A stretch of DNA of 64,000 bases. It comes from Paenibacillus sp. BIC5C1 (GTDB lineage Bacteria; Bacillota; Bacilli; Paenibacillales; Paenibacillaceae). A program made the translations under genes and the position numbers. Under the pieces are notes generated by a model. It made no database searches, was not told the DNA's origin, and saw only the letters and a list, made by a program, of their open reading frames with translations. Of this stretch, positions 13,911 to 51,368 are shown piece after piece (position 1 is the first letter of the stretch; every line of letters starts with the position of its first letter). Location: assembly GCF_032399705.1 (NCBI RefSeq), contig NZ_CP135922.1:4898001-4962000 (forward strand), read 5' to 3'.

Positions 13911-14055
13911 TACCGATAATCAATAACAGAACTTGTAGAAAGCAATTTCAATTTAATTAACGAGATACTTAGCAAAAAAACATGGTCTTGACCATAAATT
14001 GACCATTTCTCTTTAATGAACACAAAATTATAGTGAAGTTTCTTCTATAAGGAAA

Positions 14056-14080
14056 AGAAGCCTTGCTCTGCAAGGCTTCT
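14056..14080 (-). terminator. Terminator downstream of the tRNA-like fragment
   Basis: A perfect 10-base stem AGAAGCCTTG/CAAGGCTTCT with a 5-base loop is followed, read leftwards, by TTTTCC. It lies 7 bases beyond the tRNA-like 3' end, the expected place for the terminator of a host tRNA gene. Confidence 0.75.
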
Positions 14081-14086
14081 CGCGTA

Positions 14087-14130
14087 TGATCTGTAGTGGG
14101 CTCGAACCACTGACCCCTACCCTGTCAAAG
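14087..14130 (-). other. tRNA 3'-half fragment, probable prophage attachment site (left junction)
   Basis: Read on the minus strand this has a TTCGAGC T-loop inside a perfect 5-pair stem (AGTGG/CCACT), a 5-base variable loop, one strand of an anticodon stem and a candidate anticodon loop. Counting back from the T-arm puts GAC (Val) at positions 34-36 after T33. The acceptor strand ACAGATC has no partner: the sequence that should hold the D-arm and 5' acceptor does not pair. This is what remains when a phage inserts into a tRNA gene; the complete tRNA should lie at the other prophage end. Confidence 0.55.
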
Positions 14131-15066: not shown

Positions 15067-15088
15067 AAAAACCCGGTTACCCCGGGCT
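15067..15088 (-). terminator. Terminator of the Agr-like operon
   Basis: CCCGG/CCGGG (15072-15076, 15082-15086) around a 5-base loop is followed, read leftwards, by TTTTTATTTAT. It lies immediately past the LytTR gene. Confidence 0.75.
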
Positions 15089-15091
15089 TGA

Positions 15092-15820
15092 TTAATTGAT
15101 AAGTCCTTTTAGAGCTTTGAGTTTACTTCTCGCTACAGTAACTTTATACTCAGATTCCTTAAAAATCGCTGTAGATCCAAATATTTGTTCATCAACTCTC
15201 TTAATCCAATAAGGATTGACCAGGTTACCGTTATGCGCAGGGTATAGATATGGCATAGCCTCAGCACAAGCTTTGTATGTAAGTCCAATTGTGAAGAGGC
15301 CTGTGCTTGTGTGGAATCGTGGTACATAATAGTTGGCTTTCGGCTCCCACATATCTATATAGTAAATATCACAAGCGTTAAAGAATCCACTTGTTGATAA
15401 CTGCCCGTTCTCCACTATTTCTACACCAAAAATCTGCCTGCTGTCCTTCTTTAACTGTTTTACTTCATCTACGATATCTTTCCAGACTTTGAGATTCTTC
15501 TTGTTGATTCCGGTATGTATATCGTCTTTAAAGTATGCAATCCCGCCATATGATCCGGTAAACACACGATCTATGTTATCGACATTCACCAGGTTTGAGC
15601 CATCAAGGAATTTGAAGTTAGGGAAAGCCATTTCGCATGCACTCAACGTTGTAAGCACGGTAAAGTTCCCTGCTCTTGTATAAAAAAATGGGACATTATA
15701 GTTTTTCGATGGCTTCCACATTTCGATGCCCATGATATCATTCTCGGAAAAGGAAAAGCGAGGCCCGTATGAGCCATCGCTTTGTACTTGAATACCTATG
15801 ATTAATCGATCATTCATCAA
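15092..15820 (-). CDS. Protein with two LytTR-type DNA-binding domains
   Basis: 242 residues made of two similar halves (about 1-125 and 126-242). Each half has the LytTR pattern: a beta strand with VPFFYTRAGNFTVL or VPRFHTSTGLFTIG, a helix, then SNLVNVDNIDRV or GNLVNPYWIKRV (equivalent to the SYLVNxxxI signature), two strands, and a closing K-rich helix. No receiver domain is present, unlike AgrA. It is the last gene of the four-gene Agr-like cassette and is the obvious transcriptional output. Starts TTG 15820 or ATG 15817. Duplicated LytTR domains in one chain are unusual and could bind a two-repeat site as a monomer. Confidence 0.75.
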   Translation of the reverse strand: MMNDRLIIGIQVQSDGSYGPRFSFSENDIMGIEMWKPSKNYNVPFFYTRAGNFTVLTTLSACEMAFPNFKFLDGSNLVNVDNIDRVFTGSYGGIAYFKDDIHTGINKKNLKVWKDIVDEVKQLKKDSRQIFGVEIVENGQLSTSGFFNACDIYYIDMWEPKANYYVPRFHTSTGLFTIGLTYKACAEAMPYLYPAHNGNLVNPYWIKRVDEQIFGSTAIFKESEYKVTVARSKLKALKGLIN

Positions 15821-15823
15821 GGA

Positions 15824-15946
15824 TCACTTCTTCTTCAGTTCTTCTGGCATTTTCATCACTCCAACAATGACTTTTCGTTTCTTGGATGATTTTTTTGCTC
15901 CTTTAGTAAGGTCAGTACCAAGCATTCTTGCTATTTTCTGATTCAA
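15824..15946 (-). CDS. AgrD-like propeptide, 40 aa
   Basis: 40 residues, starting at TTG 15946 with AGGAGG 8 bases upstream and one base after the AgrB stop codon. It begins MNQKIARMLG and ends in KMPEELKKK, which resembles the charged C-terminal leader (PEEL/PxEL) that AgrB recognises. Position between agrB and the regulator is exactly that of agrD. It has no Cys, and its only Ser residues (20, 21) are more than ten residues before the MPEEL motif, so the usual five-residue thiolactone or lactone ring cannot form in the normal place. Confidence 0.55.
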   Translation of the reverse strand: MNQKIARMLGTDLTKGAKKSSKKRKVIVGVMKMPEELKKK

Positions 15947-15947
15947 T

Positions 15948-16475
15948 TTAACCACCTCCTTCACGTTTTGTCCATACTGGAAGAATAAGAATGGCTTGAA
16001 CAAAGAATGCCAATGTAATTTCTGGTGATATAATTATGAAATTTACAATGACCATCGCAACTGATATCCACTTAAGCCACTTATCCCATTGGGTGGAATT
16101 TACGTATTCAAAATCATTTGGAGCGTAAATTAACATTATAATTAGGCTTACTGTATTCAATAAAATAATCGATTCGTAATTTAAATTAATTAAAGGAATT
16201 AACGCAGCGGCAAAGCCGGTTACAATTGAACATATCGTTATTGGCAAATGAATGCCACCTGAAAACTTTCTTAATGCAACAAATGAAAATAACGTAATCA
16301 AGGCACCGATAGTCGTTCCGAACGTTAATCCTAAAACAATCGTAAGAAACAGTCCGGTATACCAATTGAGTCGTAGTCCCAATTCGTACTCCAATATCTC
16401 AACAGTACCTGGTCCCTCAGGATCAGATTCTTTTATGCTTACTGCGATACGCCTCGACAGCCTTTCTAATATCAC
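15948..16475 (-). CDS. agrB: AgrB-like peptide-processing membrane protease
   Basis: 175 residues with about five or six membrane helices. The catalytic region LRKFSGGIHLPITIC carries the conserved GG, His76 and Cys82; in S. aureus AgrB the pair is His77 and Cys84, so the spacing here is one shorter. By family it cleaves AgrD and forms the cyclic peptide at the membrane. The GTG at 16475 has AGGAGGG upstream. The start overlaps the sensor-like gene by 53 bases and the end touches the AgrD-like gene, so the three are translationally linked. Confidence 0.75.
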   Translation of the reverse strand: MILERLSRRIAVSIKESDPEGPGTVEILEYELGLRLNWYTGLFLTIVLGLTFGTTIGALITLFSFVALRKFSGGIHLPITICSIVTGFAAALIPLINLNYESIILLNTVSLIIMLIYAPNDFEYVNSTQWDKWLKWISVAMVIVNFIIISPEITLAFFVQAILILPVWTKREGGG

Positions 16476-17139
16476 CTTGTTCCCTCCTTACTGAAAAGAA
16501 GTAAGATACAGCAAAAGTAGCAAGCGCTAGTATTAACAATCCTGTTGGTTCGGATCTGTATAACAACACTAGAGTCATGCAAATTGTTATCGTAGAGAAC
16601 ATCGTACCAATCAAGTAGGAAAGATTTGTCTTAGACAGATAATTCTCTTTGATAATAAAATCATGAGGAGGTCTTATAATGAAAGAAAATCCAAAATCGA
16701 ACATAGAAAAGATTAAGCAAATTAAATATGTAACTAATATAGAAGACAACTGCAGTAAATAAACCAGACTCCCCTCATTCTGTTGAACAATACCAGAATG
16801 CATTATATCCATCACCTCAAATACATGAAAAATACCCATTTGTATTGCTGCGTAAGCCGATATACCAGCGCCAGCAATAAATGATGAAATATGCGATTTC
16901 AATTCCATACCAAAACGTAAAAAAAGTATGAAGAAAATATACTGAAAAGGTAAATCCAATTTTGGTAATTCTAAAGTTATTCGCATCATATATGAGAACG
17001 AAGCCATGAAAACAACGAAGAAAAATATTTTCCCTGCAAACTCTCTAACCGGCAACATATATAGCTTTAGAATAATTAAAAGCACAGCGAAAGCCTCAAA
17101 AATACCGATCACGATATAAAAAAAAGTGTTCAAATCCAC
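16423..17139 (-). CDS. AgrC-sensor-like integral membrane protein without kinase domain
   Basis: 238 residues, nearly all hydrophobic, with about seven membrane helices (near 5-27, 36-55, 62-80, 86-105, 130-150, 175-195, 200-218) and a 20-residue basic cytoplasmic tail. No His-kinase or ATPase domain follows: the stop at 16423 is inside the start of agrB. The helix layout and position suggest the peptide-sensing half of AgrC; family membership is inference. GTG start at 17139 with AGGATGG upstream. First gene of the operon. Confidence 0.5.
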   Translation of the reverse strand: MDLNTFFYIVIGIFEAFAVLLIILKLYMLPVREFAGKIFFFVVFMASFSYMMRITLELPKLDLPFQYIFFILFLRFGMELKSHISSFIAGAGISAYAAIQMGIFHVFEVMDIMHSGIVQQNEGSLVYLLQLSSILVTYLICLIFSMFDFGFSFIIRPPHDFIIKENYLSKTNLSYLIGTMFSTITICMTLVLLYRSEPTGLLILALATFAVSYFFSVRREQGDIRKAVEAYRSKHKRI

Positions 17140-17152
17140 ACCATCCTACTTA

Positions 17153-17172
17153 AATATCTTTTTAAAGATATT
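17153..17172 (-). promoter_or_regulatory. Perfect palindrome upstream of the Agr-like operon
   Basis: AATATCTTT-TT-AAAGATATT is a perfect 20-base palindrome ending 14 bases before the sensor gene start, overlapping a TATAAT-like hexamer on the minus strand. It is a candidate operator for the LytTR protein or a phage repressor. Confidence 0.4.
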
Positions 17173-17228
17173 ATAAAGGAGGATGTGGCAATTCCATAGC
17201 CAATTTAATACAACTAGATAATATAAGC

Positions 17229-17331: not shown

Positions 17332-17748
17332 ATGCGATACATGAATGAAGCATTATCAGTTGAGGATGTAAAATTAATGACCCCGGAGCAACTTGCGAAT
17401 TTCCATGAAAGAATCTTATGGGGAGATCCTGAGCCTGGAGAGAAATATTATGATTTCGAAACAGAAGAAGTGCACACTCTTATCTCCACAGATGGTGATA
17501 ACGACAAATTTGCTCTTGTCTATGAAGGAGGACAATCTCCAAATGCTGATAAATGTTTCCCCCTAATGACTATAGGAAACTTAATAGACACACTTTCCTT
17601 CGAAAACAATCTCGAAATAAGAAATTGGGGTGGCGGATGGTTTGTCATATTTGAAGGAACTATATGGGAAACCGAAGAACGCAATGGACTTCCAAGACTT
17701 CTATTTGATGCATTGAGACATAAATTAACGGAAGGCGTATACCTTTAA
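17332..17748 (+). CDS. Acidic protein of unknown function, 138 aa
   Basis: 138 residues, acidic (many Glu/Asp), no signal or membrane segment. It begins MRYMNEALSVEDVKLMTPEQ and has a strand-rich middle with NWGGGWFVIFEG and a final helix LPRLLFDALRHKL. No family recognised. AGGTGG ribosome site 10 bases before the ATG. It is on the plus strand, divergent from the Agr-like operon, and followed by its own terminator, so it is an independent cargo gene and perhaps a target of the LytTR regulator (inference). Confidence 0.55.
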   Translation: MRYMNEALSVEDVKLMTPEQLANFHERILWGDPEPGEKYYDFETEEVHTLISTDGDNDKFALVYEGGQSPNADKCFPLMTIGNLIDTLSFENNLEIRNWGGGWFVIFEGTIWETEERNGLPRLLFDALRHKLTEGVYL

Positions 17749-18988: not shown

Positions 18989-19846
18989 ATGTTCATAAGT
19001 CCTATGTTACTCGAAACAGCACCGAATCCATTCAGTCACTCGGATTACATTTTTGAACCTAAGATTGATGGACATCGGTTGATATATTCGCAACAGTCCG
19101 GCAATGTCCGGTTATATACACGTCACAACAATGAATGTACACGCCAGTATCCTGAATTACTTTTGCCTTTTGACTCTGATATCATTTTGGACGGTGAAGT
19201 AGCATGCGCCGATCCCACAACGGGATTGAATGATTTCGAAGCAGTCATGAGCCGATTTAGCACTAAACAGGATAGTAAGATACAACAGCTCACTCGTACG
19301 CTGCCAGCCACGTTTGCGGTATTTGATATCCTCCAGTACAAGGGTCAGGACTTGCGCAAACTACCTCTCTTGGAGCGTAAATCTATTCTACACAGTATTG
19401 CCTTGCCCTCTCCCTCTTTTGGCATCGTGCCGCATATAGAAGGCGCAGGAGAAGAGTTGTACGCTCAGATATACACTATGGGAATGGAAGGTGTAGTTGG
19501 CAAACGCAAAGACAGCCAGTACGTCAGCAGACGGTCCAGAGAGTGGCAGAAGGTCATCAACTGGTCCTATGCAGATGTGTTCATCACGGGATACAAAAAG
19601 TCCGAATTCGGGTGGCTTGCTGCTGTTCCTGATCCAACTGGCAGGATGAGACCAGTAGGGATCATCGAGCATGGTCCGAGTCCAAAACATAAGCAAGCAT
19701 TCCGTGGTGTATGCCATCAGCTTGTGACAGGAGAGGACAAGAATCATGTTTACCTGGAACCACGTATACAAGCCAGGGTAAAGATGCGTAATTGGACCAA
19801 ATCAGGCTTGCTACGTATCCCCGTGTTTGATCAATTTATTGTGTGA
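18989..19846 (+). CDS. ATP-dependent DNA ligase
   Basis: 285 residues. Nucleotidyl-transferase motif I is KIDGHR with the adenylated Lys25; motif III-like ILDGEV at about 66-71, FDILQYKGQD at 112-121, motif IV EGVVGKR and motif V WQKVINWSYAD follow, then a short OB-fold domain. The size and pattern resemble phage-borne ligases such as SPbeta YoqV. By family it seals nicks with ATP as cofactor. AGAGGTG ribosome site. Lies directly before the SRAP gene, suggesting a DNA-repair pair. Confidence 0.88.
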   Translation: MFISPMLLETAPNPFSHSDYIFEPKIDGHRLIYSQQSGNVRLYTRHNNECTRQYPELLLPFDSDIILDGEVACADPTTGLNDFEAVMSRFSTKQDSKIQQLTRTLPATFAVFDILQYKGQDLRKLPLLERKSILHSIALPSPSFGIVPHIEGAGEELYAQIYTMGMEGVVGKRKDSQYVSRRSREWQKVINWSYADVFITGYKKSEFGWLAAVPDPTGRMRPVGIIEHGPSPKHKQAFRGVCHQLVTGEDKNHVYLEPRIQARVKMRNWTKSGLLRIPVFDQFIV

Positions 19847-19882
19847 TTATATATTGTAAGGACAATACAGGAGGTGCTTTGT

Positions 19883-20554
19883 ATGTGTGGTAGATTTACG
19901 ATTACTGATCCCATAGACGCTATCTTGGATCGGTACTATGCATCTATTGCAGAAGGATTTGAGTACAAGCCTAATTACAACGCTGCACCTATGCAGTACA
20001 TCCCAACCATTATAGGAAGCAAAGACGGTAATCGATTGGGTTCGCTCCGTTGGGGTCTTGTTCCTACTTGGGCCAAGGATGACAAGATCGGCAACAAGAT
20101 GATTAATGCACGAGCTGAGACAATCGCCGAAAAACCAGCATTTAAACGTCTGATCAGTTCCAAGCGGTGCATCATTCCGACGAATGGATTCTATGAGTGG
20201 AAGAAAGAAGGGTCTGCCAAGCAGCCGATGCGCATTTTGATGAAGGATGATAGCATCTTTTCTTTGGCTGGCCTGTACGACACCTGGACAGATCCAGACG
20301 GGAATAAGCTAAGTACATGCACTATCATTACAACGGAGCCCAATAGTCTAATGGAAGACATTCATAACCGTATGCCAGCGATCCTTCGCCCCGATGATGA
20401 GGCCGAATGGTTAAGCAGAGATAATGATGATGTTCAGTCCTTGCTCAGCCTGCTACAACCATATCAAGCATCTGAAATGAGAGCGTATGAGGTGCCGAAG
20501 GACGTCGGTAATGTGCGGAATAACAATGAGGAATTATTAAAGGAAAAAATTTAG
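19883..20554 (+). CDS. SRAP (YedK/HMCES-like) abasic-site protein
   Basis: 223 residues. The start at 19883 gives MCGRF, placing Cys2 at the processed N-terminus as required for the thiazolidine crosslink to abasic sites in single-stranded DNA; AGGAGG lies 9 bases upstream. Other family marks: NYNAAPMQ, LRWGLVPTWAKD, MINARAETI, NGFYEWKKEG (active Glu) and IHNRMPAIL (active His). By family it shields abasic sites during replication. An upstream in-frame ATG at 19874 would bury Cys2 and is rejected. Confidence 0.93.
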   Translation: MCGRFTITDPIDAILDRYYASIAEGFEYKPNYNAAPMQYIPTIIGSKDGNRLGSLRWGLVPTWAKDDKIGNKMINARAETIAEKPAFKRLISSKRCIIPTNGFYEWKKEGSAKQPMRILMKDDSIFSLAGLYDTWTDPDGNKLSTCTIITTEPNSLMEDIHNRMPAILRPDDEAEWLSRDNDDVQSLLSLLQPYQASEMRAYEVPKDVGNVRNNNEELLKEKI

Positions 20555-50758: not shown

Positions 50759-50810
50759 GATATTTCTTTTCTGAGTGAACTAATCATTGTATTTTGTTTC
50801 ACTAATTTCA
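50709..50810. repeat. Direct repeat GTTTCACTxATTTC in the late-gene leader
   Basis: GTTTCACTCATTTC at 50709-50722 and GTTTCACTAATTTC at 50797-50810 differ at one base. They flank the gap between the recombinase and small terminase genes and could bind a late activator. I could not identify a clear sigma-A promoter here. Confidence 0.4.
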
Positions 50811-51368
50811 TCGCAACTTAAGTATTGCTCTGTCCATCATGTCCTGAGTTAACCCGATATAGTCCAATGTCTCTCTTGGATCGCTGTGTCCAAACATCTC
50901 CATTAGTAACGCTAAATTTTCTGGATCGTCCATATACAGACGGTATGCCCAGGTCTTTCGCAATGAGTGAACCCCTATATCTTTCAATCTGAATTCACGA
51001 GCTGCTTCACTCAGAAAACGATATGCAGTGGTCCGATCAATCGGCTGTTTCCGCATTCGACTTACTGTTTTAACTTGGCGGCTTGGAAATAGACAATCAT
51101 TCGGGAACATGTCCGCAGTGTACTCATCGAGATCTGATCGAATACTCGGATGAATTATAAATGTTTTAGCATGCTTGTTCTTTTGCTCAACCATGCTTAT
51201 GTGAGTTCCCTTGGTTTGCCACACCCTAAGACTCAGCAAGTCTGATACCCTCAGGCCGCTGTATATACCCATACAAAAGAATAAGTAATTGCGCATGCTT
51301 CGTATATAGAAGTATTCCTTCATTCCGTCTATAACACGTTCATCACGGATCGGCTGGACTTTCCTCAT
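50808..51368 (-). CDS. Minimal tyrosine recombinase
   Basis: 186 residues, only the catalytic domain. Active residues: Arg40 (SGLRVSDLL), a Lys in QKNKHAK (Lys63-Lys68), His134-x-x-Arg137 (VHSLRKTW), His161 (GHSDP) and Tyr170 (TLDYIG). The SAM-like arm domain of normal integrases is missing. It lies between early genes and terminase, not beside the attachment site, so it may resolve multimers or act at another site. Its ATG overlaps the upstream zinc-protein stop. Confidence 0.85.
   Translation of the reverse strand: MRKVQPIRDERVIDGMKEYFYIRSMRNYLFFCMGIYSGLRVSDLLSLRVWQTKGTHISMVEQKNKHAKTFIIHPSIRSDLDEYTADMFPNDCLFPSRQVKTVSRMRKQPIDRTTAYRFLSEAAREFRLKDIGVHSLRKTWAYRLYMDDPENLALLMEMFGHSDPRETLDYIGLTQDMMDRAILKLR

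Follow-up and report, generated by a model that had tools for sequence, protein, structure and literature searches.

Arbitrium is a peptide communication system of temperate phages that uses a linear peptide and a cytoplasmic receptor, with neither AgrB nor a membrane sensor. The prophage cassette described here would likewise serve peptide communication by temperate phages, but differs from arbitrium in having both an AgrB and a membrane sensor. In the Agr/Fsr-type systems (AgrB-AgrD-AgrC-AgrA), C28 of Staphylococcus aureus AgrD attacks the acyl-enzyme that arises after cleavage between M32 and D33 (PMC10196373), and the resulting autoinducing peptide (AIP) has a five-residue, 16-membered ring (PMC10482373; PMC4979651). 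As described for S. aureus in PMC10482373, AgrC does not tolerate an altered ring size, linear AIPs are inactive, the lactam form of AIP-1 is no agonist, and AgrB1 and AgrB2 could not process a Ser-containing AgrD. Because S. aureus does not tolerate changes of the nucleophile, a system based on lysine would need an AgrB and a receptor of its own that are matched to it. In the LytTR regulatory systems (HdrRM, BrsRM), a membrane inhibitor holds a LytTR protein that lacks a receiver, and the operon promoter is autoregulated (PMC6193735); the main text of PMC6193735 makes no mention of AgrB.

Agr-like genes have also been described in phages. A 2014 study noted AgrB, a putative AgrD and AgrC-like membrane proteins that lack a kinase ATPase domain in phages Davies, Emery and Abouo, and the accessible text of that study mentions neither a lysine nor a LytTR partner for these phages (PMC3901668). 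A review of quorum sensing in phages from 2025 states that AgrA is missing from agr-carrying phages, which may rely on that of the host (PMC11945551). Within the open literature, outside which most subscription papers lie, we came across no paper that describes an AgrD of the lysine type, an AIP that is naturally a lactam, or LytTR partners for these cassettes.

We analysed a 64,000-nucleotide stretch of the Paenibacillus sp. BIC5C1 genome (contig NZ_CP135922.1), henceforth the window, which carries the same cassette as Davies, Emery and Abouo. Compared to Agr/Fsr-type systems, the cassette has the same AgrB His/Cys dyad, a propeptide with a basic leader and a PxEL tail, an AgrC-type sensor half and a LytTR regulator, all encoded by adjoining genes. 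It differs in that there is neither a kinase nor a receiver, the order is sensor-B-D-LytTR, and the propeptide has Lys at -9 in place of the canonical Cys/Ser at -10. The agr3 locus of phiCDHM1 is, unlike the cassette, described with an associated kinase (PMC3901668). With the LytTR regulatory systems described in PMC6193735 the cassette shares a receiver-less, kinase-less LytTR regulator with a membrane partner, and in both the promoter of the operon itself carries a conserved element. On the other hand, the membrane gene of the cassette comes first and the LytTR gene last, whereas in the published systems the membrane gene lies directly downstream of the regulator (PMC6193735); moreover, the sensor is AgrC-like and a dedicated AgrB/AgrD peptide is added. 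Our main reading is that the cassette is a self-contained, kinase-free Agr-type prophage operon, with a Lys-lactam signal and a sensor that directly switches the LytTR protein, and we give this reading as a whole a probability of roughly 0.55.

Organization of the cassette

Four consecutive genes lie on the minus strand (17139-15092) in the order sensor, AgrB, AgrD-like peptide and LytTR protein, just where an earlier note, made from the DNA sequence alone, had placed them. The first gene (16423..17139) encodes a sensor-like membrane protein of 238 aa with 7 predicted TM helices and no kinase. It is overlapped by 53 nt by the gene of the AgrB membrane peptidase (15948..16475, GTG start, 175 aa), which matches PF04647 at 49.8 bits (cut-off 23) and has the His76 and Cys82 that the note had pointed out. 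The gene of the 40-aa propeptide (15824..15946) starts one base past the agrB stop codon, at a TTG (15946) preceded by a GGAGG-type ribosome site. As in AgrD, the product has a basic leader and an MPEELKKK tail and adjoins agrB; read from the TTG it contains no Cys, as the note had claimed, and no Ser at -9 to -11, where positions are counted back from the Pro of the tail. Pfam gave the peptide no match above a cut-off. The last gene (15092..15820, ATG at 15817) encodes a 241-aa protein with two tandem LytTR DNA-binding domains and no receiver. PF04397 is found in two stretches of this protein and a receiver gave no Pfam match in it. Its AlphaFold model (pLDDT 92.9) contains the fold twice, and its closest counterparts in the PDB are LytTR domains, that of S. 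aureus AgrA among them. Pfam and the structure prediction both agree with the two domains that the note had read from the letters.

Directly 3' of the LytTR gene, a consensus scan found an intrinsic-terminator-like hairpin (15069..15089, minus strand; 3 found by the scan vs 1.1 in shuffles), which is likely to be the end of the four-gene operon. Upstream of the operon there is an 18-bp box, TTGGCTATGGAATTGCCA (17186..17203, minus strand), that covers the -35 region, together with a TATAAT-like -10 hexamer (17170..17175, minus strand) that is the same in the window and its six relatives. No base of the box is changed in the window and 6/6 close relatives, the DNA farther upstream diverges, and the box is the sole copy with fewer than 3 mismatches in the 7.08-Mb genome. 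A conserved, single-copy box fits an autoregulation of the operon. The genome search gave no target for the box other than the operon itself. A search for direct repeats, which LytTR regulatory systems have just upstream of the -35, yielded none of the LytTR-site type ahead of this operon, although the conserved box lies there. A divergent gene for a 138-aa protein without a PHROGs match (window 17332-17748) lies directly upstream of the cassette promoter.

Prophage location and occurrence

The cassette sits 1 kb inside the near end of a prophage of ~55 kb (about 14129 to 69353 of the joined stretch). A genome of the same species matches the window up to 14128 and resumes at 69278 of the joined stretch, with a shared repeat of 76 bp. 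The left attachment-site repeat (14049..14128) lies in the 3' part of a tRNA-Val gene and recurs at a distance of 55 kb. In the same-species genome the empty site has an intact tRNA-Val that overlaps the repeat, which bears out the prophage location given in the earlier note. The far end carries an integrase gene (phrog_1, E 2e-56; product of 432 aa when read from the first start codon), and PHROGs recognises a terminase, an endolysin and a second integrase-family protein (50808-51368) in the prophage. An ATP-dependent DNA ligase-like gene (phrog_114) and a phrog_1599 protein are found between the cassette and the lysis genes (window 18989-20554).

The same genes lie at most 2 kb from an integrase/recombinase, near repressor-like genes, in phages Harrison, Abouo, Davies and Emery, and their fourth gene is LytTR by Pfam, above cut-off in the first two and below it in the others. 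The sensor was found in 8 of 50,697 records of a phage collection, with AgrB in the same 8, and in 3 of 72,556 plasmid records. Among 394 genomes of the host family, a seven-row sensor profile gave matches in 226 and the Pfam AgrB profile in 258; a 73-row sensor profile had matches in 40 of 398 genomes sampled from the class, six of them only via frames of 412-453 aa. In IMG/VR there were 27 loci for the sensor and 17 for AgrB; a species-genome collection gave 24 sensor loci, in Paenibacillus and Brevibacillus. The collection of homologues that the earlier note had suggested thus finds the cassette in distant loci, phages as well as genomes.

In comparison with six close relatives, dN/dS is 0.09-0.16 for the sensor, 0.07-0.30 for AgrB, 0.04-0.35 for the peptide and 0.05-0.07 for the LytTR gene (here one comparison was saturated, one relative had no gene found and one a fragment only). 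Since the values are 0.04-0.35 wherever computable, all four genes of this copy are under purifying selection. These data bear on the possibility that the cassette is simply a decayed Agr operon. The joint absence of kinase, receiver and Cys would agree with decay, as would the apparently broken LytTR genes or peptide in L054, L107, L125 and L175 and the sensor of L064, which is split across two frames. However, in the window the frames are intact and dN/dS is low, and the same form is present in distant phages and genomes; purifying selection and conservation rule out decay for this copy, and as an explanation of the cassette we give decay practically no weight. The earlier note had preferred a distinct system to decay, and the selection on the four genes and the conservation of the kinase-less, Cys-free form agree with its choice. 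Nor does the window hold a mutated copy of homologues that have kinase and Cys: as described below, the Lys form is a class of 108 peptides, and 42 of 66 Cys/Ser-type peptides are likewise beside a kinase-less sensor.

A conserved lysine in the propeptide

A peptide was found at 180 of 190 non-redundant AgrB loci (the ten others were dropped, among them L175, whose peptide is apparently frameshifted), which gave 174 distinct sequences. Lys is found at -9 in 108 of the 174, a class that is defined by Lys(-9) itself and in which 11 tails had their anchor set manually once the pattern was known; one locus, L030, is mis-anchored, as its KxxPhi-G motif is closer to the Pro, and is counted only via another Lys. 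In each of the other 66 peptides a Cys or Ser occupies -9, -10 or -11, and no peptide lacks both Lys(-9) and such a residue. Lys(-9) is present in 84/84 peptides without Cys/Ser at -9 to -11, and the remaining 24 of the 108 also carry Ser(-11) (21 peptides), Cys(-11) (2) or Cys(-10) (1, L023). No more than 3 of the 108 have a Cys anywhere in the sequence.

Position -6 is hydrophobic in 105/108 Lys peptides and position -5 is Gly in 93/108 and His in 12/108. When 38 representatives with less than 50% AgrB identity are considered, Lys(-9) is kept in 38/38, with -10 and -8 free. The median AgrB identity within the class is 33% and there are 55 tetrapeptides at -9 to -6 among the 108 peptides, i.e. 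the neighbouring residues vary while Lys(-9) does not. If the lysine does close a ring, this diversity would also suggest private signals. In the window, the proposed ring residues are K25-V26-I27-V28 (15863..15874, minus strand; -9 to -6 from Pro34), followed by G29 at -5.

The earlier note had concluded that the ring nucleophile is missing along with kinase and receiver. Its view of a distinct, selected peptide system without an operon kinase or receiver holds; the simple lack of a nucleophile does not, as Lys25 could serve in this role and the Lys form is consistent throughout its class. Taken together, the data point to a real, selected and widespread variant in which a Lys at about the position of the Agr ring Cys hints at a new ring chemistry and the lack of the kinase relay at a new signal route.

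Six loci (L137, L142, L143, L147, L164, L223) have Cys(-11) and a GHxP tail; here the tail is seemingly one residue longer and the ring could stay at five residues.

Proposed ring closure and the role of AgrB

The tail Pro of S. aureus AgrD is residue 38, which places its Cys at -10 and puts the cut between -6 and -5. A five-residue ring closed by Cys(-10) then has 2 + 12 + 2 = 16 atoms, and a four-residue ring in which Lys(-9) closes on -6 has 2 + 9 + 5 = 16 atoms, the Lys side chain being three atoms longer. Pilin sortases resolve a Cys acyl-enzyme with a lysine amine. In our best reading, AgrB would bind the 40-aa propeptide through its leader and PxEL tail and would cut after residue -6 (V28) to give a Cys-bound acyl-enzyme. 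The side-chain amine of K25 would then resolve this intermediate into a 16-atom lactam ring of the form Lys-x-x-hydrophobic, and the lactam with its N-terminal tail would be trimmed and exported.

His76 and Cys82 of AgrB are invariant in 173/173 aligned proteins, including 108/108 from Lys-type loci. Asn120 is found in 71/108 Lys-type AgrBs vs 0/65 others, and the 118-136 loop is less basic in the Lys type (net +0.79 vs +3.15). The peptide, Lys(-9) excluded, is more basic (+0.66 vs -0.12). In a published model of S. aureus AgrB the loop between helices 4 and 5 contacts AgrD (PMC10196373), and the 118-136 loop may correspond to it. As the Lys-type AgrBs can all form one clade, these AgrB differences may be plain ancestry.

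Our second choice is that the signal is linear: AgrB would only cleave, water would resolve the acyl-enzyme, and Lys(-9) and Gly/His(-5) would be residues recognised by AgrB or the sensor. The near invariance of Gly(-5), resembling a cleavage motif, is in keeping with this, and so is the loop charge of AgrB, which shifts in step with that of the peptide as recognition requires. However, a linear product leaves unexplained why every Cys/Ser-less peptide has a Lys at a single register and why the 16-atom ring is kept. The inactivity of linear S. aureus AIPs (PMC10482373) is also against it, and we regard it as unlikely, at about one chance in four.

Residues -5/-4 are acidic in 2/108 Lys peptides vs 25/65 others and D33/E34 of S. 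aureus AgrD matter for cleavage (PMC10196373), so the cut could be elsewhere in the Lys class. A further variant is that Lys closes a five-residue ring that includes -5 (KxxPhi-G), cut after the Gly, giving a 19-atom lactam. The five-residue rings of AIPs tabulated in PMC10482373, the Gly at -5 in 93/108 peptides, and peptides with Ser(-9) as nearest nucleophile, which suggest a cut that can move by one residue, would fit such a ring. Against it, the Lys peptide of L099 and the Ser peptide of L049, whose nucleophile is one place earlier, have an identical HSPEAPKEL tail, and the inferred cut in L049 is before the His. A 19-atom ring would also depart from the usual size, and we find it improbable. 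A 16-atom lactam made by AgrB is retained as our best reading of the sequences.

The sensor and its LytTR partner

The sensor belongs to no Pfam family above cut-off and to no NCBIfam family. Its model, built from the 73-row alignment (pLDDT 95.0, pTM 0.90), has seven long helices, the last of which ends at residue 236 of 238, with no domain after it. Together with the absence of a kinase family this confirms the kinase-less, seven-helix protein of the earlier note. The profile of the relatives' sensors also matches, with low score, the N-terminal half of AgrC-like proteins of 406-450 aa, mostly beside AgrB, a match that points to common descent of the sensor and AgrC. A kinase domain gave no Pfam match in four scanned homologues of this length from other Bacilli. 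One of six in NCBIfam (L278) has weak DcuS/MalK-type sensor-kinase matches, far below cut-offs, and longer homologues such as L278 likely have a degenerate kinase half. Two regulators neighbouring these homologues are receiver + LytTR proteins by Pfam scan. The sequences hint that coupling by phosphorylation may have been lost stepwise along the sensor lineage. The AgrC-like proteins beside AgrB in L272 and L274-L278 are possible pseudokinase intermediates.

A GFSFIxxPPHD stretch that separates helices 5 and 6 is conserved in the sensor and would be cytoplasmic if the N-terminus is outside. The pattern is present in 67/92 sensors of Lys/Gly peptides, in 1/15 of other Lys peptides and in 0/42 of Cys/Ser peptides. 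In the 58 loci with both the motif and a LytTR gene, a longer C-terminal tail of the sensor (about +14 aa) pairs with a double LytTR 28 to 3 and a short tail with a single LytTR 26 to 1; the three exceptions with a long tail and no double LytTR have short, apparently broken LytTR frames. This pairing may reflect shared ancestry. A kinase-less sensor is upstream in 108/108 Lys-type loci, partly by selection, as most of them were found via the sensor profile. The AgrB search contributed 66 loci: the sensor was present at 9 of the Lys type and 26 of the Cys/Ser type and absent at 25 of the Cys/Ser type, and 6 loci had no peptide.

Across the loci the open frame before the first LytTR domain is at most 60 aa, too short for a receiver, and single-domain partners are LytTR by Pfam in 7/7 scanned cases, 5 of them above cut-off. 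Among the 102 Lys loci with enough downstream DNA, 19 have no adjoining LytTR and 2 a fragment only.

Proposed signal transfer without a kinase

Given that the operon encodes no kinase and no receiver, the signal would most simply be passed on by direct contact. The seven-helix, AgrC-type sensor would read the peptide outside the cell. Through its cytoplasmic loop and C-terminal tail it would then hold or release the stand-alone LytTR protein, for which the membrane inhibitors of the LytTR regulatory systems set a precedent, and the released protein would act on the operon's own promoter, giving positive feedback, and probably on prophage or host genes.

We also considered that the sensor is a two-component input that borrows a host kinase, or that LytTR is constitutive and the sensor otherwise employed. 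The relatives of 406-450 aa occur near receiver-LytTR proteins in two scanned cases, in keeping with a stepwise loss of phosphorylation coupling, and the 19 Lys loci without an adjoining LytTR would also agree with such a role. However, the LytTR partners are too short for a receiver, so phosphorylation would have no known target here, and sensor tail and LytTR architecture change together; we give this explanation little credence. Direct switching of LytTR by the sensor is the route that we favour.

A wider reading is that lactam AIPs are natural and widespread, made by AgrB acting as a sortase-like lysine transpeptidase, with the ring one residue shorter and its 16 atoms kept, and that the kinase-free AgrC switches LytTR by contact in cassettes spread by phages. 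We regard this reading as tentative, at slightly below even odds. If it is true, a ring closed by an amide, more stable than thiolactones, would join the Agr signals and AgrB would be able to use lysine. A merger of Agr with the LytTR regulatory systems would let an Agr receptor function with no kinase, and temperate phages would gain a secreted peptide channel besides arbitrium.

Some loci depart from the common arrangement. The kinase-less sensor homologues of L063, L065, L067 and L069 have no AgrB within the fetched locus. The AgrB loci L074-L098 and L100 mostly have Cys peptides such as ...CCMTFFHEPKIPMEL, with no recognisable sensor in the short fetched locus. L055 (7738-9439) and L058 (2924-4154) each have, some 1 kb from the Lys-type cassette, another cassette of the Ser type whose sensor frame is short, and in L058 the AgrB of this Ser-type cassette is split across two frames. 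Davies, Emery and a Brevibacillus genome (L003 6004-7408, L004 5268-6669 and L071 4985-6390, respectively) have two tandem kinase-less sensor genes before one AgrB.
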